Source: Plumapathes pennacea (lineage: Eukaryota > Cnidaria > Anthozoa > Antipatharia > Myriopathidae). Taken from it: a stretch of DNA of 64,000 bases. The stretch spans positions 3,233,115 through 3,297,114 of the forward strand of contig OZ038465.1 of the NCBI GenBank assembly GCA_964036295.1, in the 5' to 3' direction. Below the pieces are notes generated by a model. It did no database searches. It saw only the letters and a program-made list of their open reading frames with translations, and was not told the origin of the DNA. The position numbers and the translations under genes are program-made. This document shows, piece after piece, positions 7,595-53,400 of this stretch (the stretch's first letter is position 1; each line of letters begins with the position of its first letter).

Positions 7595-16413
<8,819 letters not shown>

Positions 16414-16932
16414 GTTGGCTAGGTGGCTTTGGTGGTGCCCAGATCCCTGGTAACACTCGATCCAGCCTTTTTGGCGCGCAACTATAAAACGACAACTTTT
16501 TCGATTTTAGCCGCGCGCAAAAAATAGGGATCGAAAAAGTCGACGTATGCTCTGCGTATCGAGGAGAAACGCTTGTTACGCAGTCTAGCAGAGGGAGATA
16601 ACGCGCCCATTTGGCAAAATACATAAATCATCACCTGGAAACACCCAGGAGGTTGGGGTGGAGATGGTTACAACTGGAATTGATCGATAGTATCCCACTT
16701 GGCTTTCATCATCCCGCGGAACAGCTATACTATTCGGGGTGAGAAGTCGGCGAAAATTTACGAGCCGTTTGTGTGTGCCATGGATAGTCCAAGGTCCAAG
16801 GTTATGCGTTATATTTGGATTTACATAAAGTGATATTCATTTCAATGAAACGTGTCCGTTCGTTGCCCAGGGATTGTTCACCAACGATCACGATATTTGT
16901 GGCTTATTCATGTCGGAATCCTGAATGCCCAT
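16414..16932. promoter_or_regulatory. Divergent intergenic promoter region, METAP2 / SLC41A
   Basis: The start codons of METAP2 (minus) and the SLC41A model (plus) face away from each other across about 520 bp. Transcription start sites are not marked by a clear TATA element. The function is inferred from the head-to-head layout. Confidence 0.5.
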
Positions 16933-23275: not shown

Positions 23276-23413
23276 GGGCCCGGTTGTTCAAAGAGTGGAT
23301 AGCGCTTTCCAGTGGATAATTGTTAATATTTAAGCATATTTTTAATTATCAACTGGTTAAGGATTTATCCGCTGGATAGCGCTAGTATATACACTCTTTG
23401 AAAAACCGGGGCC
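23276..23413. mobile_element. MITE with GGGCCCGGTTGTTCAAAGAG ends
   Basis: Ends GGGCCCGGTTGTTCAAAGAG and CTCTTTGAAAAACCGGGGCC are inverted, with inner arms TGGATAGCGCT..CCAGTGGATAA facing TTATCC..GGATAGCGCT. A shortened version is at 45070-45170 in the duplicated unit, so it was present before the duplication. Confidence 0.8.
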
Positions 23414-24114
23414 TGGACCTCAACATGAACCATGTACCTTTAATTTGAGTTTTTCTTGTTTCGAGCAAGATTAAATTTCTTTTTTGTCCAGCTCCCTATA
23501 GTCGCACTAAAATCAGTATAGTTACACGGGACAGTGTTGTCACGCAAAATGAAATAATTGAAAACACAGAAACCAAGGTTGTGTTATTTTATTTTTGAGA
23601 GCGTTTAAAAAGCGTGTTAGTTTTTATCATACAGTAGTTGCCCAAAGCGGTCCAAACACTGTTTGCAATTCCAGGTTTTTAACTTCCTGGCCAAATCAGT
23701 TTTCCAACTGTGTTACACTTACAGCAGAATTCACTGAGTGTACTCTGAGACAAGGACTTACAGAACTTTTACTATACCGCCATTTTTGCGACGATGATGA
23801 AAAGTGCGTTTCCTCTGGACAAGAAAGTTCATTTTAACTCGTGGACATTGGAGTCATTGCTACTGCGAACACTTTTCTTGGATTTCAGCGCAAATTGGGC
23901 CATAACTTCGGCAACCTGTGCTTTCCTTAGCCACTCTCCCATGCGAACGCAGGCTCTTAGTTTTGAAGAATACTCTGCGGCTAGGCACAATATTTTACAT
24001 TTAGCCGGTAATAATGGTACAGAAATGCTTAACCGTGCCGATTACAGCTTTGAAGAGTATTTTGGCCCCGAGGCACCCATGCATGTGAAACGTTCTGGAG
24101 TAGGATCACGTGAT

Positions 24115-25726
24115 CTAGAATCTACCGAGTCTTTTCCCGCTCTGGTCTATCTCTGTTGAACGGTATTTAATCGAGTCTTCAGTCGACTTTCTGTTTCGTT
24201 GGGTCGGAAGCAAGGGCTCTTGTTCTGGCTCCGGAGCTCGATAGAGAAACAAAAACATAAAACCTCCAAAGGCGACGAGAACAGCAGAGCTGATGAATAG
24301 TAAGTCCCAGCCTTGTATGAGCTGCATGGCTTTACTGAGCAGAGGAGCCAACACTTTCCCAGCAGACATGGAGGCGATACAGTATGGCATAATAACAGGC
24401 TGCAAGGAATAAGAAGATGATCAATGAAAACTCCAACCAGCAACTGCTGAAAACTTACAGCAAATCTCACTCAAAATATTACACTGTGAGTTGTCAGTAT
24501 AAAAAAAAAATGCAGAGCACTTTTACAGGGGTTCTCTTCCCCTAAGGGGCGAGTATGAAATGAAAGAAAACTTCTCTCGCATTCGTTTATTCACTCGCCA
24601 CTTCGCGTAAACGACTAACAGGGCCACTTTCTGTAAAGGCCGGATAATTGCGACTGAGAATGACGAATTTACTTCAATATATCAACATATTTTACATCAG
24701 CTTTGCTTGCATTCTGCTGTAGCTTGTTAACGATCACGACGGTCTTCTCCAAACTGTTAAATAAAAAAGGGTGTAGAAATGACCACCCAAAAACGCGGAT
24801 CGGGGAAATATCACATCGCAACAAAAGGAAGAGAGTGGACAAAGGACACGATCAACCTGTGAAACTGTGATTTTTTGTAAAGCCAAACTTCAAAACGCTT
24901 TTGCCAAATCTCTTGTAACTCTTACTCACCATCATCGCTTTCTCAACGAACTTTGTTGTCATAGTTGGCAGGATAACTCCACACACAGAGTAAGTCAAGA
25001 ACACAGTAATCACCCCGGCGACAAAAAAGCCCTCTTTCTCGTGTGCCGTGAAATTCTTTAAAACCTAAAAGAAAAGAGAGAAAATGAACTACTAACTACT
25101 GCAACACACTACTTCTAACATAACTACTACACTACTAATACTACAAATACTGCAGTGCTATGTTCTGCTACTACTACTTCTGTATAATTTGGCTACTGCC
25201 ACTATGACCATTGTATCCTTTACACTTACCGTGGGTCCACCGACGTATGACAAAACAGCTCCAACAGTCATGAACACGTAACAAACCACGAGAGTTATCC
25301 AGTCTCCTTTCGTCTTCATACACTCGGTTTTAGAAAAGAACGAAGTAGCAAAAGAACCCAGAGCTGCTGTTCCTGACACGCCCACCATGAGCCAACCAAA
25401 CTGATCCACGTCCCATTTGAAGATGGGATAAGCAACCAGCGGCATGACGTAACCAATCCACGTGGTAATGTAGCCATTTAGGAAAAACAGTATAATGCCG
25501 AGGATAACACCGCGTGACGTGAGGGACGATTTGATGGAACCACTGCTTTCCCTGTCACCTGTGATAGATAATGAGGAAATTATTATAATTAGTCTAACTT
25601 ATGCGTATACATATGTTGAAAATGAAAGGGAAACAGAACAGAGACAAGAGAACGCACGTGTTGCTGCTTTGACGATGACGTTGTTTTAATGATGATGACG
25701 ATGATGATGATGATGATGATAATAAA

Positions 25727-25771
<45 letters not shown>

Positions 25772-28369
25772 CTGACGATGGTGAATGACGATGACATGAT
25801 AGTGGTGACGACAACGCAACGACGGAATACAAAGGACGATGATGACTGACGACTACGACGATGGTGATGATGAAGAGGATGACAGTAAGTCGATATAGAG
25901 CGGTTTTCGGATGACTGTCGAAAGTAATCGTGTGATTGCTTTGGTTTTGCGTTTGCTACGCTTTCGGATTGGTCCACACAAGTTTGGCAGCATTCTCAAC
26001 CAATCAGGAACAAAACCAAAACCAAAACCAAACATTTCTCACGCAAGCGATGGCGTGTACTCGCATTGCTGATTGGAAAGTAAAACCAAACGCAAGACCA
26101 AACGTGAATTACTTTGGCTTCTGACTGGCTGAACTGTTTTCCCTCAGTCTCTGTGATTGGCCTGTGTGATTACTTTGGTTTTGGTTTTCGACAGTCATCC
26201 GAAAACGGCTCTAAAGATAAGTAAAAGGAAAGAGGGATATAAAGAGTGGGTGAACCAGGAAAAAAGATCGGGCGACTTTCTTACCAATAGGAACACAATC
26301 GCTTTCGTTCAGAACGAACGTCACCATCACCAAGGCAACAACCAAACACGCGATCGTGAGAGCGGCGGGAGAGGAATACTCCGTCAGACCAGTCGCCTTT
26401 CCTAAAACGTTATCTTGGAAGTTTGGTAGATACGTAGCAGAGGCTGAGCATAAACGGAAAACAGAAAAAATAAGTAACTCCTCAAGCCATCGTATATATT
26501 TATTGACCCATATATATTTTACAAATACACCCATATCAAGAGAGGATCTCTTGACCCATGTCTATAAATCGCTTTTATCTCGCAGCAATCTTCGACAATT
26601 AGTCTTCTTCTAATTACCGATGCGATTTCCAGGAGAATTGTTTATTAAATCAATCAGTATAACACTGGAACTGTGCACAAGCGAATTATTGTGTCATAGT
26701 GGCCTGCGGCCCATCGAAGCGCTTCCGGTTCCGGTAATGCCTCGACGGGAAACGGCTGTATATCCGCACGCTGGCCCCACTGCATTAGTTAGAAGTGTAT
26801 TAGCAGATTATGTACTTACATATTGTGGCAAACAACACACCGAACATGCACGTGACCCTGTACAGCGACATGTAGGTAGTGCGATTTTCTCTACTGGTGT
26901 TCGCTCCTATGAAACCGTACGCAACACCTCCACTACCTGCACATTAAAAATAGAGAACAGTCAACGCTCAGTCGTTCTTTTTATGGACCTAACTTTCCTA
27001 CTTCATGAGATTAACTCTGACAAGGACCTACGCTGGAAACACTGACAAAAATCAAATTAAAAAGTAGTTCTGACAGGGGCAGGGTTAAAATTGTATCTAT
27101 CTATATTTATGTATTTAGACGGACAGATTTTTAAGGAATTATAAAGCCGAGTTTTTGGTACATTCATCAATTCTACCCACATCTCTGTTGGAACAGTAAA
27201 CGGGGTCGCTCGGTCGTTTTATTTATGGACCGAACTTTTCTTGCTAAAACCTAATTCTGGAAACACTGGCGAAAGTATTTCTAGCAGGGGCCAGCCGGTT
27301 TCCGTTTTTAAAATTTTTGATGAATTAAAACCTCGTTTTTGGTACATTTCATCGATTCTACCCATATCTCTGTTGATGCATGCTTCCTAGAATTTATCGA
27401 CATTGTAAGTTGTTAGGCGGAAAATATCCTGGCCTTTTCTCTGTTTTTAATTGAATAGATAAACGTGGTAATGAAGTGGCTGTAAATAGACCAACCTGCT
27501 CCAAATCCAGCCACGGCTCTTCCCGCTATAATCAGCGCTACGCAATTCGTCTCAGCAGCCAACATGTAAACCACGTTTCCAGCGATTGCGATGATAATGG
27601 ACCCAATAAGGACAATTTTTATTTGACAAAGTCTCTTAACTAGGAGACTTGCAATTGGCTGCGAGATGCCCTGACCCAAAGGAAACAGGCTTTGAGCCAG
27701 CGACAGGTAGACAGCAACCAAAGAAGAACTTGAATACTTCAAAATAAAAAAACAAAAAACAAAAAACAAAGAACATGTTAAAACATCAGAAAGATGATAC
27801 AAAAAATCGCCAGCAGTAAGACAAAGCCCGGCTCTTGGCTGTAATATATAACAGTGATGTTTACTACATTGCACTACCCTACAGGGGACTTAATTTGCTT
27901 AGCGCCCCGAGTCGTGCAGAACGCGGATCAAAACGATCTATGGAAGTTGGCAATGGCGTGAGTCGGCATAACCTGCCACGCAAGACAAATAAATTATGTC
28001 GGATACCTTGGCAAAGGTTGAATGAAATTCGCCAGGATTTTCAGGAGGATAAAGGGTCCAGAGAGTGTGACATTAATCTACTCGCTCCATCTTCGTCCTT
28101 TGACTTCCGTTCTTTAAAGTTATCGTAGCCCAAACTATAATCAGCTGAAGACACCAGGCAAGCTTTTTTATATTTCTTATTCTATTCGATAATCCATTGT
28201 ATGGGTTTCCTATGGGTATATTTTATACGAACTGACCTCAAATAATATATTAAGCAACGCTTACCTCGTCGATATAAGGATATATCGTGGTCATCACAAC
28301 AGCCCATTCCAAATAGTTGACAAATCCCACGAATAAAACTACTACGAGGTTTCTCTTACTCAAAGCCAT
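24115..28369 (-). CDS. MFS transporter, MFSD8-like, copy 1
   Basis: Seven exons (minus): 28369-28265, 27736-27496, 26936-26820, 26443-26285, 25558-25230, 25064-24930, 24399-24115, giving 456 residues with consistent phases. The protein is strongly hydrophobic, with about 12 spans. It starts MALSKRNLVVVLFVGFVNY. GRAVAGFGAGSGGVAYGFIG followed by NTSRENRTTYMSLYR matches the loop after TM4 in MFSD8/CLN7 (RGLLGIGAG..ERTSS). The C-terminus has an acidic di-leucine-like EQEPLLP, a possible endolysosomal sorting signal. Substrate unknown. The family assignment rests on motif resemblance; another MFS subfamily is possible. It is head-to-head with the acyltransferase-like gene and has a tandem paralogue at 45.9-51.0 kb. 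Confidence 0.88.
25688..25772. repeat. (GAT)n microsatellite in MFS copy 1 intron 4
   Basis: Imperfect GAT/GAC trinucleotide repeats of about 85 bp. The same intronic site in MFS copy 2 is expanded to about 355 bp (47236-47591). Confidence 0.9.
25898..26211. mobile_element. TA-flanked MITE, family 2 (copy B)
   Basis: 314 bp with inverted ends GAGCGGTTTTCGGATGACTG and CAGTCATCCGAAAACGGCTC, TA on each side, as in Tc1/mariner-type insertion. It is in MFS copy 1 intron 4 and absent from the matching intron of copy 2, where flanking sequence reads straight through to AAGTAAAAGGAAAGA. Confidence 0.85.
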
Positions 28370-28814
28370 TATCGTCCCAAGCAGGATTGCGCACGGATCA
28401 ACATACCACGGCTCCAAACGTTCAAAGAAGAACTAATTTCTTAGTATTCCCCTGCTGCAAATAGCAACGAAATATCGGGTAACGTTACGCAAATCACAAG
28501 ATCCCGTGATGAATCTTGTTCGTATGCCAAAAGTACGGAAGGAAGTTGATTATTCCGCTGTACGTAGCCCGCAACTGTTGCCTGTCTAAAACTTTGGAGA
28601 TTGATCCATCGTAGCTTTTCGCTTTGAATTGCACTGTGAAAGGCTGGCTCTTCTAGTTATTACGTCATGGGTTTCTGAGAACAGGCGTTCCACTCGTTGC
28701 AGCGCGCTTTCAGTTTTGACGGACGTGTTTCTGCCTGTCATCGCCCCGAAATAGCCGTACTTCCGGTCATCCGTAATACTTGGCACAACAATCGCTGAGT
28801 TTGCAGGCGCCAAC
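28370..28814. promoter_or_regulatory. Divergent intergenic promoter region, MFS copy 1 / acyltransferase-like
   Basis: 445 bp separate the two start codons, which point away from each other. No TATA box is evident. The part next to the MFS gene is duplicated upstream of MFS copy 2; the part next to the acyltransferase-like gene is not. Confidence 0.5.
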
Positions 28815-31800
28815 ATGTATCGACTGGGAAATGACGTTTTTTGCAAATCCGTCGTTCGGACTGCATTCAATTCAAATCGCGCGGTATCCTCGCATTTCAC
28901 ATCGAAAAACCGCGTGTGTAACTCTGAGGAGGACAGAAGAAATGCTTTAAAGGTGCGTAAAGTTTCGTATGTCGTTATCAAATCCTATGGTATGTGCTCA
29001 TTTATAACAGTTTGTCACATCAGTTGATTATCTGTATGAGAGAACGCAGCACTGAAAATATATTCCCAATACATAATGTATACCCCAAGCCCATTTTTCC
29101 ACCGGGAAAGAGGAAGGGACAGGTACTCAAGTGAACCTAATACTTTGCAAAACGTCAAGAAACAGCACAAAGTTATCTGAACGGTAACGGTGAAACATGG
29201 CTAGTTTTGGTTATTGTTTAAGCCCATTTCTGTACGACGTTCGATCTCGTCCCTAGTAACCAAACTACCGTGCCGCATGTGACATCATAGTTTCGTTTCA
29301 CAATTTATTCTTGTATTTGTGACTGACGTCATTTTAAAAATACAAATCAGTCCTTGTCTATGGTACACAACGATGGCAAGGAGGGGGTCCTTGTCTATGG
29401 TACACAACGATGGTGGCTGGGAGATATGCAAGGGGGGGGGGGGGGTGAGAAGGGGATATATACTGCCAACTCTTGAGTGAATAATCATCTTCTTTCGCCT
29501 TTCTCATGACAGAGAGATAATAATGCATTTGGGAAGAGTGAAAACTGCATATGGGTGACGGAGAGACAAATTAACAATAATTAATGAGTATATTTAATTT
29601 TTCTGCTGCGATCCCGCTATAGTTTACGGCTGATTGACATTACGGGCAGTTTGATGCATCCCTGGTACGCACTAGAAGAGATGCACCAAAATGACCGTAT
29701 CTCAGAGTACTCAACGACCAAAGCAGTTGACTTGTTGGAAACTAGACTGCTCGAGTGTGTAACCATTTCATTTCAAAAGACTTCCGCCGGATATAATTAA
29801 CCTTTTCATACAATCACGTGCGCAGTTCGTGTAGGTCTGGAAAATGTCAATCTTATAAGGTGTGTGTTTTGTGTTGTAATGATTCTTGTGTGATGTGATC
29901 AGATTTTTGTAGCGACAGAAGTGAGAAGTGAAACCATTAAAGAACGTGAGTGACTGTGACTGGTTTGGAGGTAATCAGCGCGGAGGCTATTTCCATAAGA
30001 CTATAAACAAGTCCGCAAGAATGAAAACTGCATATAAGTGATGGAGATACAAATTAACGACAATGAATGAGTATATTTAATTTTCCTGCCGCAATCCCAC
30101 TTGTTTACGGCTGATTGACACGACGGTCCGTTTGATGCATCCCTTCTAGTATTTGCAGCTCGAAGTGATCCAATGGATATAATATCTTTCTTTCGTTAAA
30201 ACAGGATGTTGATCGGTCCAAGCACCTTCATGACCGCCTTCTGCTGTGGGATGATACTTTATCTGTTTCACCGCCGCCTTCTTTGTCTTCCCTCCTGGAG
30301 TTTCTCACCAGAAGAAGAGTTTCATCTGATGCATCAAAAGGAGCAAAGATCTTTGACGGTTTACTTGTCCGTGGTGCTGCCTGTTTGATCGGCCTGCGGG
30401 GCGCACATAAAAGGTACGTTTCTCCACTCTGCACCTCAATCAATATTTTTTTCATTTTCTTCTCAGATGTTTTTTCTCACTTCTTTTCTGTCATGATCTG
30501 CTACTTGAATCGTCTTTATCTTTTTTTCGTTGCTTTCCTCACTCGTCTGGTGATGTGACCTACTTGGCAACTCTGTAGTCTGTCATTTTCAATGTAGTCG
30601 TCTTAACTCCAGTTTCTTATCTTGGTTTGTCTCTCGTACCGTTTTCTTACTAGTTTTCGTTTTCTGTTAGTTAGTCCCTTCCTTTGTACCTTTTGCGTCC
30701 TTCCCCCGCTTTCTCTTCTCCAATTTCCGTCCTTCCTTTTATCTCTTTACTTCTCCTTCGGCCCTCTTTTAATTTTGTTGTGCCCCGTTCTCCTCTTTTC
30801 TGTTCTTTGTACCTGTTAGTTAGTATCATTCTCATTGTAATTTTTCACTTCTCAATTTTCTCTTCTCAGCGTTATAAATTAAAGCCTCACGTACGTATTC
30901 TTCTACTGACTCCACTTTCTTTCTAGTTTGTCCTTTGTTTTATGCGGGCTATATTTTTTTCTCAGATTAAATCAAGATCATGGTGCAGACCCCATCCGTA
31001 GCTGCTGGTACACTCCAGCCAATCACGGCGACACATTTGGCATTCGACACGACGAGATTTATTTCCATCCAAACATCATTCCCTCACAGCCGGTTACATC
31101 ATACGCTGTCGTCATTCGCGGAAGCACGCAGTACCCCCAATCAGCGGTTAAAGACGGCATAGCAGAAAACGAAATCGTGTCTGAGTTGACAAGCAATCAA
31201 GTGGTAGACGACGAAGCTATGATTGGTCGAGCAGCATCCCTCATTCTAGGATTGCTGAAAACTAGAGAGTTCTATCTCAGCCAAGAGTTTGAACGGGAGT
31301 TCATTAAGAAAACCCCCCTGTCCATGCAATGGTACAGCTACATTTTCTCGTGCTCAATGCAATTCTACCCAGGATGCATTGAACGGTACAAAGCGCCTTT
31401 AGCTTCATCGCGTCACGCGATCGTTATGCTTGATGGCGATATGTACAAGATGGAAGTGCTGTTCAAGAATGATCGTGGAGAGGAGACAACTATTGACTTG
31501 AATCAACTGAAAGTAAGTATAATACCAACAAATATGTGACAATGTAGCACTTTGATCGTGGTTCAGAATTTCAAAAGATAAGCCAAACAATAAGTTTGAT
31601 GACCAACTGGCATCAGACTGATTTGCGCATAGTTAGAAGGCTCTCGGCGTCATAAATCGGATTGTGCGCACTGCCATTGTAGACACGGTTTTCAGATCAG
31701 CATTAAAGTTTTACAATTCTACCCGGCGTTCATTGAACGATAATCTTTCCTTCCACAGCGAAAGCTACGAAGCATTTTGAAGATGCAAACCAACAGAGTA

Positions 31801-33880
31801 AGTAGCAGCCTCCCAACGGGTGTCCTAACGAGCCTGTCGCCATCTGCACGATGCCGCGAAGAGCAGAAACTCAAAGCGCTTAGTGAGAAGAATATTGAGA
31901 ACCTAGCCACTGTGCGGGATGCGCTGTTTGTGCTTTGTTTAGAAAATGGCGACTCTCCTCAGTCAGCGAATGAAACCATGTACGCTTTGCAGTCCAAAAA
32001 CTTTGTCAATCGGTGGTACGACAAAAGCGTTCAACTTGTGGTGTTCAAAAATGGCGTCGCAGGGTTTGTGAACAACTACCTCGCGGGAATGACCGGTACG
32101 GTGGGAACGAATTTCATTCGAATGGCAGTTGGAAGCGAAGACTGCTTTCAAGATAAATGTACTGGTAAGTGTACTCTTTGTACCGGAGGTTTTTCCGCCG
32201 ATCTCCGTCTCGCCCGAAGATATTACGGGTTGTGGGCGTGAGCCGCACGAACAAATTCCGAAAATGAAAGAGATTTTGTCTTGAGATGGCAATCATGGCC
32301 ACGTCATCCAACATGCCTGGCCTCCCAAACAAATCTTGTATAATTGCTACAATTATGGGGCATAGTAAACTTTGGCAACTCGACTGCGAAAGTGACTTCG
32401 TAAAGTTCTTGGAAATTAAATTTACACTCTTGTGATGAATTCAGCCTAAGCCTCGTAATTGACTGTATCCCAGTGCACTCTCGTTCTTTCCTAATAACTG
32501 CTATTTACCTCTTAGGAAGTGATGGCAATGACAGAGAGTTGTCAGAACCCTCAGCCTTGACTTGGGATGACACAGCTGACGAATACTTCCACAAAAAACT
32601 CCATGAAATCGTTTGCGATAGGCACACGTCTGGTCCTTTCAAGCCGATGCGCCAAGATGTTTCCAAAATCTGCCAAGGCTTCAGTTTTGTTGCGCTTTGC
32701 AGGTCTCAGCGCGTCACTCCCGGTGGGGCATTCCAGGCTGCGTTGCAGCTCGCACTAGCAAGAGTGTCTGGCAAGTTCATGAGCGTCGGAGAAGTTGTCA
32801 GTATCAGGTACGAGGAAGGGTCTGTACGTGGATTCGGCTTAGTATCTGATCACTTGCACAATTAGACAGACTACATTCTATTCCCGCTATTGCCGTTATT
32901 TAGAAGGCTAAACTAAACTGCTCAACAAAAGAAGAGCTTTTCCATTCAATAGTGACAACTGTCGGCTAAAATACGCGAGTAGTGTAGTCGGTGAGTCGAA
33001 AAGCTACAACCGTGTCATATTTTAAGTCCAGAAAGCCTTCGAGACGTGTCACTAGCAAACATTCGAGTTTGAACAGCCTTTGAAAAGAGATGAAGAAACC
33101 AATGATCGCCTCGCGTCGCCATTTTCTACTACATCAACGTGTGAATATGCCAAACACCACAGTCAAGTAATCGTCCCTCCCACAGTGGTTCCAAATAGGG
33201 CCATGCGGCTGTTTTGGTAGACTCGGAGATAAAAACTCACTCACACGTCACACAGTTCTTATAAGGTTTTTTTCCTCATTTTCAGGCATCTCCGCTTTGG
33301 TGGTATGGTCTTCATGGATGCCAGCATGGCAGATATGAAGGCTTTCGTTCAATCGGCCCAACCGTCTCTGAATCTCACCAAACTCTTAAATGAAAGGCGA
33401 GACAGTTTGCGTAAACTGCTGATCCGAGCCATTCAAGGCTACAGGGAAGAAGTGCTGCGTTACAAGAACGGAGAAATGCACACCTGGCACCTGGATAGTC
33501 TGTACAGAAATATCGGTTTACAGAATAGATTGCCTTATTGGGAACCACCGCGTCTCGATTTGAAGACGAAGCTAAAAGGTGCGGCTCTCGACGCCATGAG
33601 AAACCCCCTTATCGACATTTTCCCGCCAGCAGTTCCCGTGAACGTCACCTCCAATCCTGATTGGTACCCTGAGATTGAGGCTATAGGAAGAGCCGGAGTC
33701 AAGTGTATTTTACCCCCGGGTTCTATGGCGCTGCATTACATTTTAGGAAAGAGCGGTATGTCTATTACGATTAATGCAGATCCCCAGCATCCATGTTATC
33801 AGAAAGAAGAAATGTTGGCGAAGGAGTTGGAAACATGTTTGAAGTTTGTAATGGATCTTTTTCGTGACGCGAAGAAATAA
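28815..33880 (+). CDS. Choline/carnitine acyltransferase-like protein with altered active site
   Basis: Six exons: 28815-28952, 30205-30413, 30966-31512, 31759-32164, 32516-32807, 33286-33880, with phases closing to 728 residues. The N-terminus (MYRLGNDVFCKSVVRTAF, rich in Arg/Ser, no acid until residue 7) could be a mitochondrial presequence. Family landmarks follow in order: NRWYDKSVQLVV, then a segment equal to the catalytic loop, later RVTPGGAFQAALQLALAR with VSGKFMSVGEVVSIRHLRFG, which corresponds to the conserved P-x-AFxQLALQLA..TGK..YE..R block. These enzymes move acyl groups between CoA and carnitine or choline. In the catalytic loop the usual Val-Tyr-Glu-His is V402-N-N-Y405, so the general-base His is Tyr here. 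It may be a pseudoenzyme or have a new chemistry. An AATAAA overlaps the stop codon. Confidence 0.85.
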
Positions 33881-34809: not shown

Positions 34810-36578
34810 TTAACCATTAAGTGAGGTCCTTCGAGTGCGTAGCGCGCATGCGTCGTGATAAGCGATCACCGTAAGTCCGTAGCCTTCCTTTGGCTCTCCG
34901 TCATATTCACCATTGACATACTTTTCATAGACAGACCAGCTGCGGTGATAAATGACGGATACATTTTCAGTCGAATATATCTCTTTGCTCGCAAGAATGA
35001 AGGCCAGTTCTTTGAGGAGGTAGCAAACGCCTTCTTTGATGTTCTCGTCGTCTTCCAGCTCCGAATCCAAGGATGATTCTGCAGAGAAAAAGAGACAAAC
35101 TGTCAGTTTTATGCTGCCAAAAACAATTTCAATGAAAACTTCCAACTCCTGAACTTTCCAAATGAGTAGTGACCACTCATTACAGGTTCTCATTGAATAC
35201 GTTCTAATAAAACGTTTACGTCATTCGATGCAAGGGTGTTCCAAAATTTGTGGCGTATTAGGAAATTAATCAATGACAGCTGAATCTACTGAAATGCCCT
35301 GACATTTGACACCCCTTCAGACGGATTTGAAAGCATGATGAGTAATCAGGGCAAATAAACTTCATATACATTCCTTTTCTGATCGGTGGAACTTCGGAAC
35401 ACTCCAAATTGCCATTTGCAAGCTTTCAGACTGTTCTAGATTGTGAGCGATTTCACTATTAAACCGAGACGAACGCATCGCCGCCATGTTTTTTTGTTAT
35501 TGCCCTGATTACCCATCATGCATTCAAATCTGTGAAGGGGTCTATTTCAGCAGGGCATGGCTCCAAATATCACGCATTCGCACCTCCGAGTGAACAGGAC
35601 TAAACTCCATATTGCGTAGACTTTAATAAAACTAACCTGCAAGATTAGCTGATTCACCGAGGATTGTCTTCTTCCCGATAACTCTGGCCGTGAGTGAAGC
35701 TGCGTCTGATCGGAACTGTTGGTTGTTGTGATAAAAGTTTACCACTCTCTCCAAAGCCGTGACGTATGCCGGGTGTACATCAACCTCTTGCGCCCAGTCC
35801 ACCATGTGGTAGCTGCCAAGAAGGTTTCTGCAACTGTTCCTCACCTATAAACAACAGCAACGCGCGATCACTTAGCAGATATCCAAATACATTTTAAGTA
35901 AGGGTCCACGTAAGCCTAAAGTGACAACAAACAATGCGCGTTCGGGTGTGACAACCACCACTGTAGTCGCGCGGCGAGACAGAAATAATATTATTATTAT
36001 AGCCTCAATTGGTTTAATTTACTCTCAGCTCAACATCAGGGCACTTTTTGGTAACGCAGAACTTCTCGTACAGTTTGATATGAAAATCAAGTAATATTAC
36101 GAAACGAACAATCAGTTCAATGCCGTTCATAGCGTTCAAGCAACTATGGCTGCGCTCGCAGATTCGCAGACAAAACCAACAAGCCCACAATCAACGCGTG
36201 AAAAAGTACGCAGATAGAATTAAGATTCTTAAATTATCAAAACTACTTCTGTCTCTTACGTACCTTTTCTATAGCTCTTCTGCAGTGGGAGCGCAGTTGG
36301 CTAGCGTTCTTCTTTGCTCTTTTGACAGCGTCTTTGGAGCCCATAGCTCTGTACGTGTGCTCGGCTGGTTGCTGCGGAACCACTACCACCACGCGCCGCT
36401 TCTCCTGCCCAAGAAAACGAACATAGTCTTCGATAACTGGAGACTTGAAGTATGGATTTCCAGGACTCATGCCAAAGAGAACAACACCATTGGCAGCATC
36501 TGACATGACAACGCGACCAGTTTCATGTACCAGGCTGGACATACTCTCTTCGAGACGAAGAACTTTGTCAAGAACCAT
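34810..36578 (-). CDS. Cyclodipeptide synthase (tRNA-dependent), NYH-type
   Basis: Three exons (minus): 36578-36264, 35844-35637, 35078-34810, with phases closing to 263 residues, the family's usual size (about 220-260). An in-frame TAG sits four codons upstream of the ATG, which fixes the start. CDPSs take two aminoacyl-tRNAs and form a 2,5-diketopiperazine by a ping-pong mechanism through an acyl-serine. Visible landmarks against AlbC: LFGMS38 with the nucleophilic Ser; PGN41 (N40 of the NYH subfamily); a basic helix K86-R104 (KRAKKNASQLRSHCRRAIEK) suited to tRNA contact; Y194-x3-E198 (CYLLKE) equal to Y178/E182; and IY218-H219 equal to Y202/H203. The His in front of the GxS motif and the Pro of YxxxExP are not kept. 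Product and aminoacyl specificity cannot be read from the sequence. Starts 335 bp from a divergent P450. Confidence 0.9.
35294..35558. mobile_element. MITE with about 60-bp inverted ends in CDPS intron 2
   Basis: 265 bp. The ends ATGCCCTG and CAGGGCAT are complementary. The inner arms (ACCCCTTCAGACGGATTTGA..GCATGATGAGTAATCAGGGC and the reverse of GCCCTGATTACCCATCATGC..TTCAAATCTGTGAAGGGG) pair over about 60 bp with a few mismatches. No target-site duplication could be assigned. Confidence 0.85.
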
Positions 36579-36913
36579 TGCGACTGTCTAATCAATTCCA
36601 GCGATGCGAGGACTGCTTGCTCCCAATCAGCAAACTGATGAATTTTAGCGGCCGGCGACCGCTTTTTGAACGGTTTGGTCACTCTTTATTGCTACTGACG
36701 TCATCAAGATGTATTCCCGCAGGCGGCCAACCTATTTTTGTCTATGACTGACAAGCACTGGTCATGTGTAGCAAATCAAAAGCGTCCCAGACCGCTGTAA
36801 CAGATAAGCGTTTCAGGATGGTATCGTTTACTGGGATTACCCAATAAATCCCGTGACGTGACTGACTGGATTCCCCATCGAGCCTGGAAAGCAATCAGTT
36901 CGAAAACGAAATC
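36579..36913. promoter_or_regulatory. Divergent promoter region shared by CDPS and P450
   Basis: 335 bp between the CDPS ATG (minus) and the P450 ATG (plus). No TATA element is clear. The region contains CCCGTGACGTGACTGAC, a TGACG-type (CRE/bZIP-like) sequence, at about 36850-36866. Shared control is inferred from the spacing only. Confidence 0.55.
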
Positions 36914-39900
36914 ATGGCGGCAACATTGGTTTTAGCGTTTGCAGCGATTCTGGTGGTAATTGTGTCGTTGACGATCAAAAATGTCAAACAAGTAAGTGCA
37001 TTGTTCTTCAAATGTATTCATACGGGCTCCAGTGTGTTGCTAAATGTCAGTTAAACTGCTGTGTCCCAAAGTGAACAGTCGGTAATATTGCTCTGCGCGT
37101 GCGGTTGATCGCCGAGTCGACAAGTAAAATGCGTCAAGAATTCTCGGGGACTGAATTTTGAATCATTTTCTTTAGAAGATGTTTACTGGTAGCCTGCGTC
37201 TGACACCTCATCAGTTCGTTTCAGCGATTGCGAAAACCGAAACCCAGCTTGAGTCACGCAAGTTTGGGTTGATGCTTCTGCATATTTCTGCGTTCCCTTA
37301 TTGTTTAATATCGAAACGTGAGAATGAAGAAACAGGGAAACTTTCCTTACTCCGAGCAGCGTCGACAACTTCCAGCTACTGCATTTGGAAAAGAAAACTG
37401 CGGCCCCCACCCCTCCCCTGGTTGTAACATTTTGTAACCCAAATTCCTGGTAACAGTTGGTCTTACAGGGAATATGTCGACTAATAGATATTTTGAAGAC
37501 GACTCATACGAGTGGACTAGTTTTGGCATCAAAATTAATTAAAAGTCACTCATCCGCCTGACCGAGCTATCAACTTCAATGAAAAATTAAACTTGAAACC
37601 ATAAGTGACCGCTGAACAGTGTCCTAAATTTAATTATGATCTGTATTTCCCCGAACTCTGTTTGTTGACCTCCCGTGATTTGTAAGCTGGGCGCGTGATA
37701 TGCGTATTGAACATATCGTTTCCCCGAAAACTATTTTGGTTCGATAACGATGACGATGACAATTATGGTGATGATGATGATTTTTGTTGTTCTGCCTATT
37801 ACTCACAGGCACAAAACGAAAACGCACAATAGATGACTTGTCAACGTAAGTCCATTTATTTGGTTAACAGTTGTGTTCGTGCCTTGAAAAACGAGAATCT
37901 CGAGGTGTCTTCTTCAGTCTGCCAGTAAAAAAAATCCCCGTCACCCTGCGTTTAAGATGATACACAAACATACGTGAATTAGGAACAAGCTTGGAGCAAG
38001 TAAGACAAATAACTCACATAGTGATTTATGTTAACTGGCGGCATGAACATCCTTTGGGAACAGCGAGCAAAAATGCGCAATTAATTATTGAAATGTGTGT
38101 CCTTGGGTGATTCATGCCAGGCATTATTGATGATATTTTTTACGTATTGTCCGCATAAAACTGCATTATACAGTGGGCTGATTGGTGAACTAGTCTCTTA
38201 AGACTGTGTAACAATAGCTTCGCTCCCAATTCAAAAATTAATTCGCCGCCGAAAGCGTCCCTCTCTTGATGTTGTCATAATAAGAACTTTAAAGATTTGA
38301 TGAACTGCTCGTCAGCAACGTCTTTGTAGCTGTTTTACAATAATTTCTGCATTCTGATTTGCTGAAAGCATGTCACTTTATCCCAAACAAGGCCAAGTTC
38401 TGCATATCTGTGATATATTAATGGAAGTTTCTTAATTCTGGTTTATAGACTGACCGATACGAGTTTGCTTTCTAGGTGTATTTCTGGCAGAATGATTCTG
38501 GTGAAGTTATCCAAGGAACCTCGTTTAGATTGTTCACAGCACCTCTCATTTCACTGAGGGATAATCGGCTCGCTCATCTGGGCCTGTATCTTCTCCGCTT
38601 CTTTCCGATGCCAAAGCTGTGAGTGCACGTTCAACATTCTTTTGTGCAAGGGGTTGGGGAGGGAGGGGAGGGGAGGGGGATTATTAGTATCGTGACCATG
38701 ATAATAAGGCAGCCCAGCATGTATGGCCTTAAGTATTTATTAGCTAATATGGGTGATCACATGATTTCGAATACAATTTGGAATAAATGAGTACAAGTAA
38801 TTTTTTCAAAGACCACAAATTTGTGATCTTTAAAAAATGATGTGCTCATTATTCCTAAATTGCACAAAGAAATTATGTGATTACTTGTTAATAACATGCA
38901 TACAATAATTTTACGTCGCGCAATTTTATTTTTAATTTCTTTTACAATTCAAAAGTGTCTCTTAAGAACTTTGTTTTCTCGTAAACAGAATCGAAATCTT
39001 TCTGAGGAATGAAAACACGCTTTTTGTTTTGTTTGGCTTTGCAACTTAATACGTGCACAAGCTGTCAGCAATTTTCAATTTCAAATTTCACAATTGTTCA
39101 CTGTTAATTTACTTGCTTCATAACTGCGAGGGTCACTTTCACTATCATGGTATGACAATAATCATGATGATGACTTCGCCCACTGCAAAACAAACGGCTT
39201 CTTACTCTACACCATTATTTTAATCCCCTATTCCGGGAATCACGCCCAAAAGAACATTTAGACAAATTTATAGTTACGGGTTGGTAACGAAGTATGGTCT
39301 TTTTTTATTTTACAGGATGATAACAGACTCTCAGATTGCATCGAAGTTTATGGCCAAGCAACACAAGTACTCGCGCCTAAAAGACTTTCGCATGGGTTAC
39401 ATCTTTGAGAATCTCTTTGGCCGTGCTGTTGGCACAGCGAGTGGCCCGGAACACAAATACATGCGTAGCATATTCGACAAAGGCTACAGCACAGAAATTG
39501 TGACGAAAAATCTGAGGATGATGGAAGAGGAATGTGAACAGTTCTTACATCAGACAATGCAAGACAAAAAAGTATGTTTTTATGCAGCCGTAGCTTGCAC
39601 CCCTAAAGCCACCTATTTGAGATGATGCAGATCTCTAAGCTGATATAGTGGATATATGTCATTTCCTTTAGAGCCTTCTGAGATCATTGCAGACATGTAG
39701 AAATTAAGAAATTCCAGCCAATAATTGAACTTGTTTTGTATTTTCCTGGTGTGACAAGAGGCCGTTGCTATTAAATTGGGGATGCAGCACAAAATTCATA
39801 AATTTCAAAGGTAAACCAACCACATAATAGCAAATGAATTCGTATCGTTATGGACGTGTTCTGTCTTTTTGTAGTCTGTATTTTTTTTCTTTTTTCTTTT

Positions 39901-39992
39901 ATTTCTTTGGCTTGTCTGTGCCTGTAGTATTAATGAAATGTAATGTAGTGTAAATGTAATGAAATGAAATGAAAATAAAGCAAGGAAATGTA

Positions 39993-40081
<89 letters not shown>

Positions 40082-42569
40082 TAATAATAATAATAATAAT
40101 AATAATCCTCTCCTCTTCTCCCCCACCGCCTCTCAATAATCTGTATATTTTTATACGATTGTGTGTCACATCAAAAGGGTGTCATCACAATGGACGATAT
40201 GCTGCACGTCACGTTCCGTGTTTTGGTGAAGTACACGTTTGGTTCCGGTGTGTCGGAGGAAGACTTCAGGGAGCTGAGTGAAATCAGAGAGTTAACAGCA
40301 ACTTTAATTGGTGACACGTTCACCAATCCCCTGATAAAGCTGCCTTTCTACAAATATTTGCCTACGGACCCAAACCGACGGCTGGCGGAGTACAAACGAA
40401 GATGGAAAGCAATTGTGGACAGGTAACTTTTAAATTCCTGACTGTCTTGGTGCTAAATCCATGACAATCATAAAATTGTCAGACGTTAATACGCCGGGAA
40501 CCTGTACGCCAAACCCATGAAATATTTTCTCTCGCGCGTGATTGGTGGAAACGTAACACGTGACCGAATAACGCCCGCTCGTTATCAGCGAATAACCCCC
40601 TCCTGGCGAACTGTCGCTACAATAACAAACAGTTTTTTTAACCAATCACACAAAAACATTACGGGATGAAACAATTTGCATCAACCACTGAGGAGGACAT
40701 CATTTCAAAAGCAGTTCAGGAAAGCACCAAAAGTCTACATCTTTTGCCGCGCGAGAGGAAATATTTGAAGGATAATAAAGACAATAAACTACTAGTTTAT
40801 TGTTTATATACTGTTTGCCTTAGAAGCTGTGTTAAATTTATGGTTCACGGCCTGTCGGCAAATTGGATGCAGTCTTGAATTTGTACATGACGTCATGAAA
40901 GTTCGCGCCTGCGATTTGGCCGCGGTTGCCAGTATAATAACTATGGCAACAAATTGCTCCGCGCGAAATATAAAAAGTAAACTTTTCAACATCTTGTGTG
41001 GTGTTGTGGTTTCGATTCTTCTTGTCGTCTTTCGATGCTGCATGGTTCGGATTCACGTCGAAGAAACGCACAAACTAGTTGAACGTAAATCGAAATGGAA
41101 GGTAGAGAAAACTATTCACTGTGTTACTTTCACCACCAGAAGCAAACTGGATAAATTTATTAAGACATTGTCGTTCCATAATTACAAAATTCTAAAGTTT
41201 GCCACTAAAATTTTGCCTTTTAACAACACGAGACTTTATTTTGCACCTTTTCAAACCAAAATTCTGAAAACAGAAACGATAACTTTCTTTCAAACAAGAC
41301 TTACTTTACATATCATCAATCAAAACGATGCTTTAATTTGTCTCCGTGACGCTATTTAGCGTGAAAATATCGACCGCTTTACGGCCAAATGCTCGCGCTA
41401 TGACGTCATGCATAATTAACTTTGCATAATTTATTATTTAGGTCTCAGCCTTCGGCCTTGAACCATAAAATTGATCTGGATCACCAGAATTACAGAGCTT
41501 ATGGGATTGCGTCCCGTGCTATCTTAGCCGCAACTCCTGAGCTTAATATAGTTTTACTCGTTTCCTAGTTGTCCCTTGAGTGTGGTCCACACTCTCAAAG
41601 TCACATGATTTCTCGATACACAGGTTTGTCAAAAAGATCAACGAGGACCACTCAACAGATGAAAATTGCGCACTGTACAAGATATTGCAAACTTTAGCGG
41701 AGAATCCGGAAACTCTCACGAGAGAGCAGGTAATGAAGTCACATAAGTCAGGTTAAAACGTCCTGGTTCAAAGCAGGATTTAGTTTTCCGAGGTTGAAAA
41801 AAAAAAAAAAAAAAAAAAAAGAAAGAAAGAAAGAAAGAAAGAAAGAAACAAGAATAGCAGTTACTTTTGTCATATTGCTTTTTAGTTGCTTCGTCAAGCG
41901 GTATGCACAATAATATGCGTGATAGAGATCCGAGACGCATTAGATTTTCTTAATTTGTTCTAGTTGGAGCAGACGTTAGAGGAAGCCTCCCTGGCTAATG
42001 TGGACATTACAAGTGGAAGCACTTCCTGGCTCGTTTTCCATGCGGCGCTGTATACGGACCTTCAGAAGGAGCTTACCTCGGAGATCGAAAAGGTTCGTGT
42101 TCCTGGATCATCCCGGTTTATAATTTCTTTATCTTTTGCATTTTAGCAGAGTTAATGTTGTTGGGAACTATAGAATGTTAGACTATAAAATATGAATAAT
42201 TAGTTTACCACCTTCTTTCTGCACAGAACTCCGGTCCTCTAGATATGGACACACTCTCGCAGATGGAGTTTCTGGGCAAGTTTGTGAAGGAGTCGGCTCG
42301 CAGGCGCCCTGTGTTAGAAATCAGCACACCTGAATACATCACGTGCCCAATGATGATCGGCAACTATCACACACCAGCAAAGGTAAAGTGCGCGTATGGC
42401 CGATATAAGCTCTTTTATAAACGCGTACAGTTGTACTAGGTAGGAAATTATTTAGGTTGCTTTGCACTAATACGGTTTTCAACATGCTACTCTCAATATG
42501 CCTAATAATCTTAAGTAATAGTCCTTAATACATTATATATTTTATTTATTTATTTATTTATTTATCTAT

Positions 42570-42617
<48 letters not shown>

Positions 42618-42941
42618 TTCGAAGTTTCGATGGATATCAATGCCGTCAACAATGATTCCAGAGTCTGGAAAGATCCCACATCTTTCAACCCTCGACGATT
42701 TGATGACGAAACAGCAAGCATGCGCAAATGCTTGTTTCGGTTTGGCATCGGATCGAGGCGATGCTTGGGCTACAGACTCGCCGACACCTTCATGAAAGTG
42801 CTTCTCATCACGGCATTTCGTTCATACAAGGTTACCAACGAAACCGTTGTGAAGGGTGACGATGAAAGCGTGCCTGTTAATCGCATCGGAATTTTTGCTT
42901 TCCCGAATATCAAATTTAGGATAGAAAAGAAGACTGAGTAG
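36914..42941 (+). CDS. Cytochrome P450, microsomal type
   Basis: Eight exons: 36914-36991, 38476-38618, 39316-39571, 40178-40422, 41624-41729, 41964-42092, 42227-42382, 42618-42941, with phases closing to 478 residues. P450s are haem-thiolate monooxygenases. Exon 1 is a membrane anchor (MAATLVLAFAAILVVIVSLT). The K-helix ExxR is E341-S-A-R344, the meander is FNPRRF at 394-399, and the haem loop is FGIGSRRCLG with the ligand C420. The I-helix reads ANVDITSGSTSW (287-298) and lacks the usual acid-threonine pair of (A/G)Gx(D/E)T(T/S). That may alter oxygen activation. Subfamily not recognised. It is divergent from CDPS. In bacteria, CDPS-linked P450s tailor the diketopiperazine, and a similar role is a hypothesis here. 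Its 3' end is copied at 52.1-53.4 kb. Confidence 0.92.
39993..40106. repeat. (ATA)n microsatellite in P450 intron 3
   Basis: About 38 near-perfect ATA/TAA units with one C interruption, about 70 bp upstream of the exon 4 acceptor. Confidence 0.95.
40423..41623. other. P450 intron 4, with a possible transposon-ORF remnant
   Basis: This 1.2-kb intron holds open stretches without a recognised domain. A short plus-strand piece at 40666-40740 (MKQFASTTEEDIISKAVQES) resembles the start of transposon-encoded proteins common in marine invertebrates, but this is weak. The 40829-41359 open frame is unrecognised. Confidence 0.35.
41798..41848. repeat. Poly-A / (GAAA)n microsatellite
   Basis: About 23 A followed by seven GAAA units in P450 intron 5, possibly an old retroelement tail. 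Confidence 0.9.
42541..42617. repeat. (TTTA)n microsatellite abutting the P450 exon 8 acceptor
   Basis: About 17 TTTA units run directly into TTTTTACAG, so the tetranucleotide repeat forms the polypyrimidine tract of the last P450 acceptor. Confidence 0.9.
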
Positions 42942-43538
42942 TGAATAAGTCAAGTGAAGAAGAAAAGGTTTCCCTCCAATTTTGTGTATCTAAAACACGT
43001 GGAATTGAAAGATAGTGTTGAGCTTTTTGATATAGAAATGCACGTTTCATCAAATAAGATGCATTTCTATTACATAACTCAAGCCCTACAGGCGTTTATA
43101 ATGAGTCATTTATACTTGCATGATACGTGTTACCGTTTTCGCCAGCATCTTACAGCCAAATGCGCATTTGACTCACCCTAGAAACTGACTTCTGAGCTTT
43201 AAACCGTCAAACGAGTGTAACAAGTCTAAATCAGCAGAGAGTGGACTGTGTTGACATCGGTGCCTAGTACCCTGCAGAACAAAGTTCAAGACATGTTGTT
43301 TTTATTGTTGTTTTATGTCTTGGTTTGTTGTTTGTTTTTATATCTGAAGAGAGAGATATTATCAATGTGGTGTAGAGGATACGTCATAGGATGGTTCACA
43401 CATTCACGTGCAAGTAGAAACTCTGTTGCGTCTGCGTTTGTGCTCTTTTTGGAAGCCAATGTTTTTATGCTACTCAAAGTCTGGCAACTTTTTATGTCTG
43501 ACAAATGCCAGTTTTGGTCCTGTTAAAGAGAAAAGAAA

Positions 43539-45053: not shown

Positions 45054-45886
45054 GAATCATCTACTGGGCTGGGCCCGGTTGTTCAAAGAGTGGATAGTGC
45101 TATCCAGTGGATAATTGTTAACATTTAAGCAGTTATTTTTAATTATCCACTTTGAACAACGGGACCTGAACCTCGACATGAACCATGTAACCTTCAATTT
45201 GAATCTTTCTTGTTTGGAGCAAGATTCCGTTTCTTTTTTGTCCAGCTCCCTATAGTCGCACTAAATCAGTATAGTTACACTGGACAGTGTTGTCACGCAA
45301 AATGAAATAATTTAAAACACAGAAACCAAGGTTGTGTCATTTTATTTTTGAAAGCGTTTAAAAAGCGTGTTAGTTTTCAGAAATTAAAAATCATCAGTTG
45401 CCCTAAGCGGTCCAAACGCTGTTTGCAATTCCAGGTTTTCAACTTCCGGGCCAAATCAGTTTTCCAATTGTGTTACACTTACAGCAGAATACACTGAGTG
45501 TACTCTGAGACAAGGACTTACATAACTCTTACTACAGTATAATGCCATTTTTTTGCGACGGTGATGAAAAGTAACGTTTCGTTTGGAAAGTTCATTTTAA
45601 CTCCGAGACATTGCAGTCATTGCTATGGGCCATAATTTAGGCAACCTGTGCCTTCCTTAGCCACTCTCCCATGGGAGCGCAGGATCACAGCTTTGAAGAA
45701 TACTCTACGGCTATAGGCACAATATTTTACATTTAGCGAGCAATAATGTTACGGAAATACTTAACCGTGTTAATTACAGATTTAAAGAGTACTTTGGAAC
45801 CAAGGCACAATTTTTTACATGCAATCAATAATGTTACGGAATGCTTCACCGTGCATGTGAATCCTTCTAGAGTCGGATTACGTGAT

Positions 45887-51044
<5,158 letters not shown>

Positions 51045-51453
51045 TATCGCCCCAAGCAGGATTGCACACGGATCAACTTATCACGGCTCCAAACGTTCAA
51101 AGAAGAACTAATTTCCTAGTATTCCCCTGTTGCGAATGCAAGGTCAATTTCGGGTTACCACGGCGGTGGGGTCTGGAGCGAGTGTTTGATGTTATAAGAG
51201 TTAGAGTGAAATAAAATGAACAAAACTTACCTTGTATGTTTATCTGCGCTTCAAGAGCCTGTGTTCGAACTTTTAGCCGATTTTTGCAATATAATACCAG
51301 TGAGGTCGCGAAGCCAAAAATGGTAGCAAACTCGAATTGTTACCGAGTTTGCTACGAGCATGTAGCTTGCTCCGTACATTTTTTTATTCGAAAAATAACT
51401 ACACCGTATTCAATTTAAGAATCCTTTGCTCAGAGTTAGTATACTTTCTTCAT

Positions 51454-52113: not shown

Positions 52114-53400
52114 CTATCACACACCAACAAAGAAAAAGTGCGAATATCAAATTTAGGGTAGAAAGAAAGACTGAGTAGTGAATAAGTCAAGTGAAGAAGA
52201 AAAGTTTCCCTCCGATTTCGTGTATCTAAGAAACGTGGAATTGAAAGATAGTGTCGAGCTTTTTGATATAGAAATGCACGTTTCACCACTATGCATGAAA
52301 ACCATATAACATTTCTATTACATAACTCAAGCCCTACAGGTGCTTATAATGAGTCATTTATACTTGCATGGTACGTGTTGCCTTTTTCTCCAGCATCTTA
52401 CAGCCAAATGCGCATTTGACTCACCCTAGAAACTGACTTCTGAGCTTTAAACCGTCAAACGAGTGTAACAAGTAAGTCTAAATCAGCAAAGAGTGGACTG
52501 TGTTGACATCAGTGCCTAGTACCCTGCAGAACAAAGTTCAAAACATGTTGTTTTTATTGTTGTTTTATGTCTTGGTTTGCTGTTTGTTGTTTGTTTTTGA
52601 TTAACTTTATCTGAAGAGAGAGAATTTAGCGAGGTGGTATATAGAGGATATGTCATAGGATGGTTCACACAGTCACGTGAAAGTAGAAACTCTGTTGCGC
52701 CTGCGTTTGCGCTCTTTTTGGAAGCCATTGTTTTTATGCTACTCTCAATATACCTATATAATAATTATAAGTAATAATCCTTACTACATCTACTATAAAA
52801 TTAATTATAAGTAAGGACTAATTCTGGTATAGACTGAGTTGAAGATATCTCAAAAGCTGAACATATCGGAAAGATCGATGGATTATTTTGGACTATTAGT
52901 CCTTTTTGAGTCATGCTGCATGTGAAAAGGATCAGAAGGATAGTATTTTGACAAGTTTGTACTTGAATTGGGCACAACACTGAGAACTTCACATATAGTA
53001 GGCAAAATAAAAGATAATTGCAAAAACTTTATTGTGTTGCACAAAGTTTACATTTTCTACCCATTTCTTAGTCGCAAATGAAAACAAAATAATTCAAAAT
53101 TTTGCAACCTGAGGTGTTACAGAAATAAATCAACAAAACAAACAGCCTCTCAGCATCGATAAAAAGTTACAATTGACATTACAATTGATGCGTTTGTCCA
53201 GCTTGCTCTAAGCCGATCATACCAACAATAATTTTATCCCAACTACAAAGCTCCGTGACTTGACGCCGGGTCCATCCCCTCAAAGTTTGGCAACATTTTA
53301 TGCCTGACAAATGCCAGTTTTGGTCCTATTAAAAAAATTAAAAAATAAATAAAGGAAAGAAACTGTAACTAAACATTTGTGCTGTGCTATACTCGTGCAT
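52114..53400 (+). pseudogene. Broken 3' copy of the P450 gene
   Basis: CTATCACACACCAACAAAG (52114-52132) matches the end of P450 exon 7. It jumps within a few bases to the last codons of exon 8 (AATATCAAATTTAGG..GAAAGACTGAGTAG, stop at 52176-52178), so the intron and most of exon 8, including the haem Cys, are deleted. The 3' untranslated region then matches 42942-43590 with an extra segment of about 540 bp at 52742-53280. No catalytic part remains. Confidence 0.85.
53028..53033 (-). promoter_or_regulatory. Possible polyadenylation signal of the cysteine-rich peptide gene
   Basis: AATAAA on the minus strand about 560 nt after the peptide stop codon, in otherwise non-coding sequence. Confidence 0.4.

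Follow-up and report, generated by a model that had tools for sequence, protein, structure and literature searches.

The stretch of DNA analysed here, referred to as the window, comprises 64,000 nucleotides of the genome of the antipatharian Plumapathes pennacea (C4:3233115-3297114; genome of 290 Mb in 24 contigs) and contains the gene of a cyclodipeptide synthase (CDPS) that lies head to head with the gene of a cytochrome P450 (P450). The CDPS gene (34810..36578, minus strand) consists of the exons 36578-36264, 35844-35637 and 35078-34810 and is complete, encoding a protein of 263 aa. The P450 gene (36914..42941, plus strand) is also complete and encodes 478 aa in eight exons (36914-36991, 38476-38618, 39316-39571, 40178-40422, 41624-41729, 41964-42092, 42227-42382 and 42618-42941). 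The 335 bp that separate the two ATGs (36579..36913, no strand assigned) represent a candidate bidirectional promoter. A preliminary description of the window had placed the starts of both genes 335 bp apart, and its coordinates and gene description are borne out by the exon models.

The CDPS protein is recognised by the profiles Pfam PF16715 (E=1e-23, 84.7 bits; cut-off 27) and NCBIfam TIGR04539 (108 bits; cut-off 45), and it matches solved CDPS structures at the sequence level. When aligned with AlbC, it presents all of Ser37, Asn40, Tyr178, Glu182, Tyr202 and His203, which in its own numbering are S38, N41, Y194, E198, Y218 and H219, the set of the NYH type. In AlbC numbering, Ser37, Tyr178, Glu182 and Tyr202 are the residues that we take to be catalytic, and Asn40 and His203 those that presumably mark the subfamily. 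This SNYEYH set is common to the window CDPS, the aligned coral rows, the Nematostella protein P0011 and both CDPS copies located on another contig of the same genome, C8. By profile and residue set, the window CDPS is a member of the NYH subfamily with predicted cyclodipeptide activity. The residues of the P1 pocket read LGVPWFIV in the window CDPS and in 9 of 10 stony-coral-type rows, with P0007 deviating at one position, and in the available part of PMC5816076 (Table 2) the listed motif closest to them by eye is LGLPWFLF (F/I?). Pocket position 119 is alignment-dependent, being W in one alignment and A or T in another, the residues of the P2 pocket depart from those of most coral rows at three of seven positions, and the second C8 copy (CDPS-b2) has Val where P1 has Gly. 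A prediction of the product from the pocket residues was dropped and no product is claimed, because position 119 shifts with the alignment and the P2 residues differ from those of the coral rows.

The P450 gene has seven introns, every one GT-AG, and its product matches Pfam PF00067 (E=8e-49, 167 bits; cut-off 22.8). This match, the eight exons and the N-terminal hydrophobic stretch MAATLVLAFAAILVVIVSLTIKNVKQ, which constitutes a membrane anchor, agree with the complete, N-terminally anchored P450 announced in the preliminary description. The protein carries the heme signature with its Cys (FGIGSRRCLG) and an ExxR motif (ESAR). The I helix of P450s usually contains the motif [AG]Gx[DE]T, visible as GGVDT in the alignment with CYP11A1, whereas the window P450 reads ANVDIT at this site, with Gly replaced by Asn and Thr by Ile. 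NVDIT occurs in all nine window-type members read (the window P450 and 8 of 8 coral-type relatives) and the C8 copies read NVDVS, while [AG]Gx[DE]TT is kept in 6 of 6 other readable P450s of the genome, three of which are near-alike tandem copies (of the eight loci fetched, two were dropped, as L002 and L004 yielded no P450 sequence that could be read; P0050 was read but stands outside alignment A1). With neither Gly nor Thr at these I-helix sites in any member read, the family likely performs an atypical oxidation chemistry. NCBIfam TIGR04538, the profile of CDPS-associated P450s, gives 27.8 bits with the window P450 (cut-off 500), the top NCBIfam profile is that of a bacterial terpene oxidase, which matches weakly (79 bits; cut-off 700), and CYP121 is not among the 60 of 232 PDB matches listed for this protein. 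A protein search that scored the 7,998 candidates sharing most words with the window P450 produced nine matches, the first eight at 49-58% identity and the ninth at 22%. Organism names are attached to six of the eight nearest ones, all from stony corals (Oculina, Montipora, two from Porites lobata and two from P. evermanni).

The corresponding search with the CDPS returned 43 matches, of which those with an organism name are from stony corals and Nematostella; P0032 and P0035 have CDPS-type names with no organism stated. In Oculina patagonica the P450 (ACROYT_G025583), the CDPS (G025584) and an acyltransferase-like protein (G025586), whose counterpart also neighbours the pair in the window, bear close tags and the same contig size. 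For the CDPS and the P450 of Porites lobata the listed contig measures 1,668,973 bp in both cases, and for those of P. evermanni 57,919 bp, equal size alone being the sign that the contig is the same. By the same sign, an acyltransferase-like protein and a second P450 copy of P. evermanni share a contig of 318,836 bp. Lack of conserved linkage was the outcome that, according to the preliminary description, would speak against a common pathway; linkage held in these three corals and in two further pairs on C8. The Oculina tags, the Porites contigs and the C8 pairs provide the trait by which gene clusters are recognised, namely a core and a tailoring enzyme linked across species. Both CDPS trees place the window copy next to, but not within, nine stony-coral-type rows that form a group (support 95/96 and 97/97), among which Oculina, Porites and Acropora are named, and unite it with these rows while leaving Nematostella P0011 outside (96/94 and 97/92), a position that would fit a corallimorph or some other hexacoral close to the stony corals; in the second tree P0043, L028 and L029 were left out and CDPS proteins of more than 300 aa were cut to 250. 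Seven of the CDPS proteins found (P0002-P0008) are each encoded by one uninterrupted open frame on a contig of 922-2,070 bp. These short contigs are probably spliced transcripts, an indirect sign of expression, because in three other copies (P0017, P0018 and P0028) the similarity gives way to unrelated sequence at RRAI[ED][KR], which is the exon-1 boundary of the window CDPS, and in these seven it does not.

A whole-genome scan with the Pfam CDPS profile gave three matches (four candidates, four scored), i.e., the window gene and two genes on C8, and a P450 scan of the genome revealed P450 exons interleaved with the latter on the opposite strand. In the 20 kb of C8 that were read (C8:12694001-12714000; positions are relative to this stretch), CDPS-b1 starts at 2267 on the minus strand and P450-b1 at 2585 on the plus strand, head to head with 317 bp between them, and CDPS-b2 starts at 8825 on the minus strand and P450-b2 at 9275 on the plus strand, again head to head, with 449 bp between them. 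The P450 first exons on which these starts rest were assigned by recurrence, a similar hydrophobic exon being present upstream of each of three P450 bodies; that of the third P450 lies at 16715, and a CDPS remnant of 33 residues lies at 6534-6436. In this genome, each of the three CDPS genes detected thus has a head-to-head neighbour from one and the same P450 family (335, 317 and 449 bp). The C8 CDPS proteins score 90.9 and 85.6 bits with Pfam, and in P450-b2 the Pfam P450 profile matches the I-helix exon (69.3 bits) and the C-terminal exon (59.7 bits), the body exon alone giving no match. Between the two loci, whose divergence lies far back in time, the CDPS are 33-34% and the P450s 25-26% identical, and therefore the pairing is either old or was made twice. 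The C8 P450s form one clade with the window and coral P450s (support 100/99), set apart from the protein P0052 and from five further P450s encoded in the genome, and the C8 CDPS join the cnidarian CDPS clade weakly (83/74). The C8 pairs are tandem duplicates and, with a dN/dS of 0.21 for the CDPS and of 0.12 for the P450 exons compared, they look constrained. No counterpart of the acyltransferase-like gene or of the MFS-transporter-like genes of the window was found in the 20-kb stretch of C8. A search of 264 kb around the window at E 1e-3 yielded no additional gene for a CDPS, for a P450 of the family or for an acyltransferase-like protein. Since all three CDPS genes found with Pfam are head to head with a P450 and the two genes are linked in other corals, the pairing appears to be more than chance.

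On this evidence it is very probable that the CDPS and the P450 form a two-gene animal biosynthetic unit, kept and duplicated together as a pair. In the pathway envisaged from the enzyme family and the catalytic set, a cytosolic CDPS would take up two aminoacyl-tRNAs, park the first aminoacyl group on Ser38 and join it to the second to form a cyclic dipeptide. The P450, anchored in the endoplasmic reticulum and supplied by the P450 reductase of the cell, would then oxidise this compound by dehydrogenation, by ring or side-chain coupling or by another atypical oxidation, rather than by plain hydroxylation. The head-to-head layout over 335 bp would permit both genes to be switched on jointly. 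The pair would be conserved and duplicated as a unit, C8 holding two tandem head-to-head pairs of old relatives of both genes, with P450 first exons that are assigned there. The candidate animal cyclodipeptide pathway of the preliminary description, itself a conjecture, thereby gains support from the coral linkage and the two additional pairs. Chemical defence or signalling are guesses at its biological role.

Judging from the layout, the 335-bp stretch may act as one shared promoter through which the two genes would be co-regulated. Its CpG content is 1.06 observed/expected, and several neighbouring 500-bp windows are at least as high. The sequence TGACGTCA, located inside this stretch, was considered as a shared regulatory motif and rejected, since the window as a whole contains 9 copies of it against 1.05 expected and its presence proves nothing. 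The excess of TGACGTCA across the whole window perhaps reflects a repeat or a widespread regulatory site. A bacterial promoter scan was set aside as inapplicable to an animal gene.

The two genes could alternatively be bystanders that are adjacent through conserved gene order, the P450 having a steroid, a lipid or a xenobiotic as substrate. The acyltransferase-like gene, which is linked as well although its distribution among species is not tied to that of the CDPS, lends some weight to this explanation, as does a best NCBIfam profile that belongs to a bacterial terpene oxidase. It is nevertheless unlikely, because the head-to-head arrangement recurs on C8 between ancient paralogues of the two genes, in 20 kb that show neither the acyltransferase-like nor an MFS gene, and because three of the three CDPS genes found are paired. 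It can also be imagined that the CDPS product is itself active, or that the CDPS does other work with charged tRNAs, and that the P450 is there for breakdown and not for building. Animal P450s commonly clear small molecules, and the CDPS of Nematostella, for which no close P450 relative was found, would fit such a role; in our judgement, however, a P450 family with an altered I helix that is paired gene by gene with the CDPS suits building better, and a role in breakdown is quite improbable. Bacterial contamination or a fresh bacterial insertion comes to mind as most known CDPS are bacterial (PMC5816076, in the part available), but this origin is practically out of the question: the GT-AG introns and exon structure of both genes refute it, the window belongs to a 27-Mb contig with zero N across the 264 kb read, and there are coral orthologues on contigs of at least 30 Mb.

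Several observations count against the two genes forming a biosynthetic unit. The acyltransferase-like family is present in Actinia and Exaiptasia, neither of which is among the named CDPS matches, and it also lies near the pair in Oculina; part of the linkage between CDPS and P450 may therefore be plain conserved gene order. The linkage in Oculina and Porites is read from tag order and equal contig size, which inform neither on orientation nor on spacing. No close P450 of Nematostella was found among the 7,998 best word-sharing candidates scored, although a CDPS exists there, and in the 20 kb read from C8 no intact CDPS accompanies the third P450. The distances of 317 and 449 bp depend on the assigned first exons, with at least one further C8 P450 exon unplaced, and the P450 tree is flagged for the meeting of long branches. 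Nor do the CDPS pocket residues, with the shift of position 119, single out a product.

Some of the closest parallels are bacterial. They include the mycocyclosin genes of Mycobacterium tuberculosis, a CDPS and CYP121, and, in Bacillus, the CDPS-P450 pair for pulcherriminic acid. The CYP121-type mycocyclosin pathway involves the C-C coupling of cyclo(Tyr-Tyr). As in these systems, a CDPS adjoins a P450 in the window, where a cyclic dipeptide would be the substrate of the P450; in contrast to these bacterial operons, the window P450 is membrane-anchored, intron-bearing, head to head with the CDPS and far from the bacterial profile (28 bits with TIGR04538; cut-off 500). Bacterial CDPS that lie beside a P450 oxidising their cyclic dipeptide are described in the available parts of PMC2922099 and PMC11610984. 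CDPS 71 of Streptomyces, the CDPS part of which makes cyclo(Trp-Tyr), likewise combines CDPS and P450 in one unit, but as a single fused bacterial protein instead of two animal genes (PMC5816076, in the part available). As for animals, the accessible text of PMC5816076 already mentions CDPS from coral, anemones and marine worms, and animal CDPS also appear in that of PMC4159871 and PMC2922099. Nvec-CDPS2 of Nematostella vectensis has been characterised (Seguin et al., 2011, as cited in the accessible text of PMC5816076 and PMC4159871). It resembles the window CDPS in being an anthozoan NYH-type enzyme, and Nematostella P0011, which may or may not be Nvec-CDPS2, shares 51% identity with the window CDPS and has the P1 pocket LGFPxYIF versus LGVPxFIV in the window. 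Nvec-CDPS2 differs in that no paired P450 is mentioned in the parts of PMC5816076 and PMC4159871 available and that no close Nematostella P450 was matched. In octocorals, co-location of a P450 and a terpene cyclase led to a pathway enzyme that was confirmed by expression, as reported in the available text of PMC11784711. That pair, HcTC3 and HcCYP (pseudopterosin/helioporin), is similar to the window pair in representing clustered biosynthesis encoded by the animal with a dedicated P450 in a coral, and is unlike it in comprising a terpene cyclase and belonging to octocorals, whereas tRNA-dependent peptide chemistry is expected in the window (PMC11784711, same part). No animal CDPS-P450 pair was found described in the literature searched, a set with few subscription papers. 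The preliminary description had spoken of an undescribed system, which holds for the animal pairing with a lineage-specific eukaryotic P450, not found described, and does not hold for anthozoan CDPS and bacterial CDPS-P450 combinations, already in print (PMC5816076, in the part available). What appears to be new is a CDPS-P450 pathway, predicted from the genes, that is reconstructed around an animal-type P450 paired head to head with its CDPS.

As to the origin of the anthozoan CDPS, the nearest prokaryotic CDPS found come from four archaeal assemblies (Nanoarchaeota, Woesearchaeota, Aenigmatarchaeota and one unclassified; L009-L012) and show 29-36% identity, followed by those of candidate-phylum, Melainabacteria and proteobacterial assemblies; the search for them relied on two peptide patterns, and the trees contain almost no classical actinobacterial or firmicute CDPS. 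The forks joining archaeal and cnidarian CDPS are weak (82/68 and 83/74). Because the nearest prokaryotic CDPS found are archaeal, the core enzyme may come from an unexpected donor. A plain pattern of the P450 heme motif was absent within up to 6 kb in all 21 prokaryotic CDPS loci fetched with these two patterns, and therefore these lineages would offer no ready-made pair, leaving room for other donors. Two scans of viral collections gave no confirmed relative. The candidate-phylum, Melainabacteria and proteobacterial assemblies contain long CDPS proteins of 454-495 aa (L013, L015, L016, L018-L027 and L014:5971-7383), and the one among them that was tested, the L014 protein, is a fusion with a family 3 solute-binding domain (PF00497), which hints at a link to sensing or transport.

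In a broader and tentative proposal, to which we give somewhat less than an even chance, hexacorallians would possess an old tRNA-dependent diketopiperazine metabolism in which the CDPS and a P450 family of its own have evolved together, moving, multiplying and diverging as head-to-head pairs. In this view the P450s would oxidise cyclic dipeptides by a reaction other than hydroxylation, one that is not known from animals, and the core enzyme would possibly stem from that unexpected, perhaps archaeal, source. If true, an animal pathway would take amino acids straight from charged tRNAs and process them with a dedicated oxidase. Symbionts are regarded as the makers of many small molecules that marine animals contain. 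The coral-encoded clusters found in print are terpene clusters (PMC11784711, in the part available). The role of animal CDPS is an open question, and the purpose of these enzymes would become a direct two-gene test, the paired paralogues permitting a clean comparison. A P450 family with an altered active site would moreover be on offer for study.

Next to the pair lies the carnitine/choline-acyltransferase-like gene (30205..33880, plus strand), which is partial, with five exons (30205-30413, 30966-31512, 31759-32164, 32516-32807 and 33286-33880) encoding 682 aa and its first exon or exons not found. In carnitine and choline acyltransferases the catalytic His is part of an EHS-type motif, as in the fish choline acetyltransferase (ChAT) P0061, which reads CEHSPFEG. 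The corresponding region is NNYLAGMTG in the window protein and NNY[LI]A[GA]MTG in 6 of 6 cnidarian-type relatives read (P0053-P0057 and P0059), and the neighbour is unlikely to be an ordinary acyltransferase. Membership of this gene and of the MFS genes in the core pathway was considered and is unsupported, since neither occurs in the C8 stretch. The exons of an MFS-transporter-like gene fall in a duplicated block (block A, 23396..28480, minus strand; limits of the block and not of the gene, role predicted), and a second MFS-transporter-like gene in block B (45150..51155, minus strand), pieces of which are 82-92% identical to block A. The last codons and 3' flank of the P450 (first copy 42904-43475) also recur at 52141..52744 on the plus strand, with 89% identity over 605 columns, and neither an acyltransferase-like gene nor a CDPS nor the body of a P450 is seen in the second duplicate copy. 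The simplest reading of these repeats is a tandem duplication, after which the second copy would have lost its acyltransferase-CDPS-P450 body.

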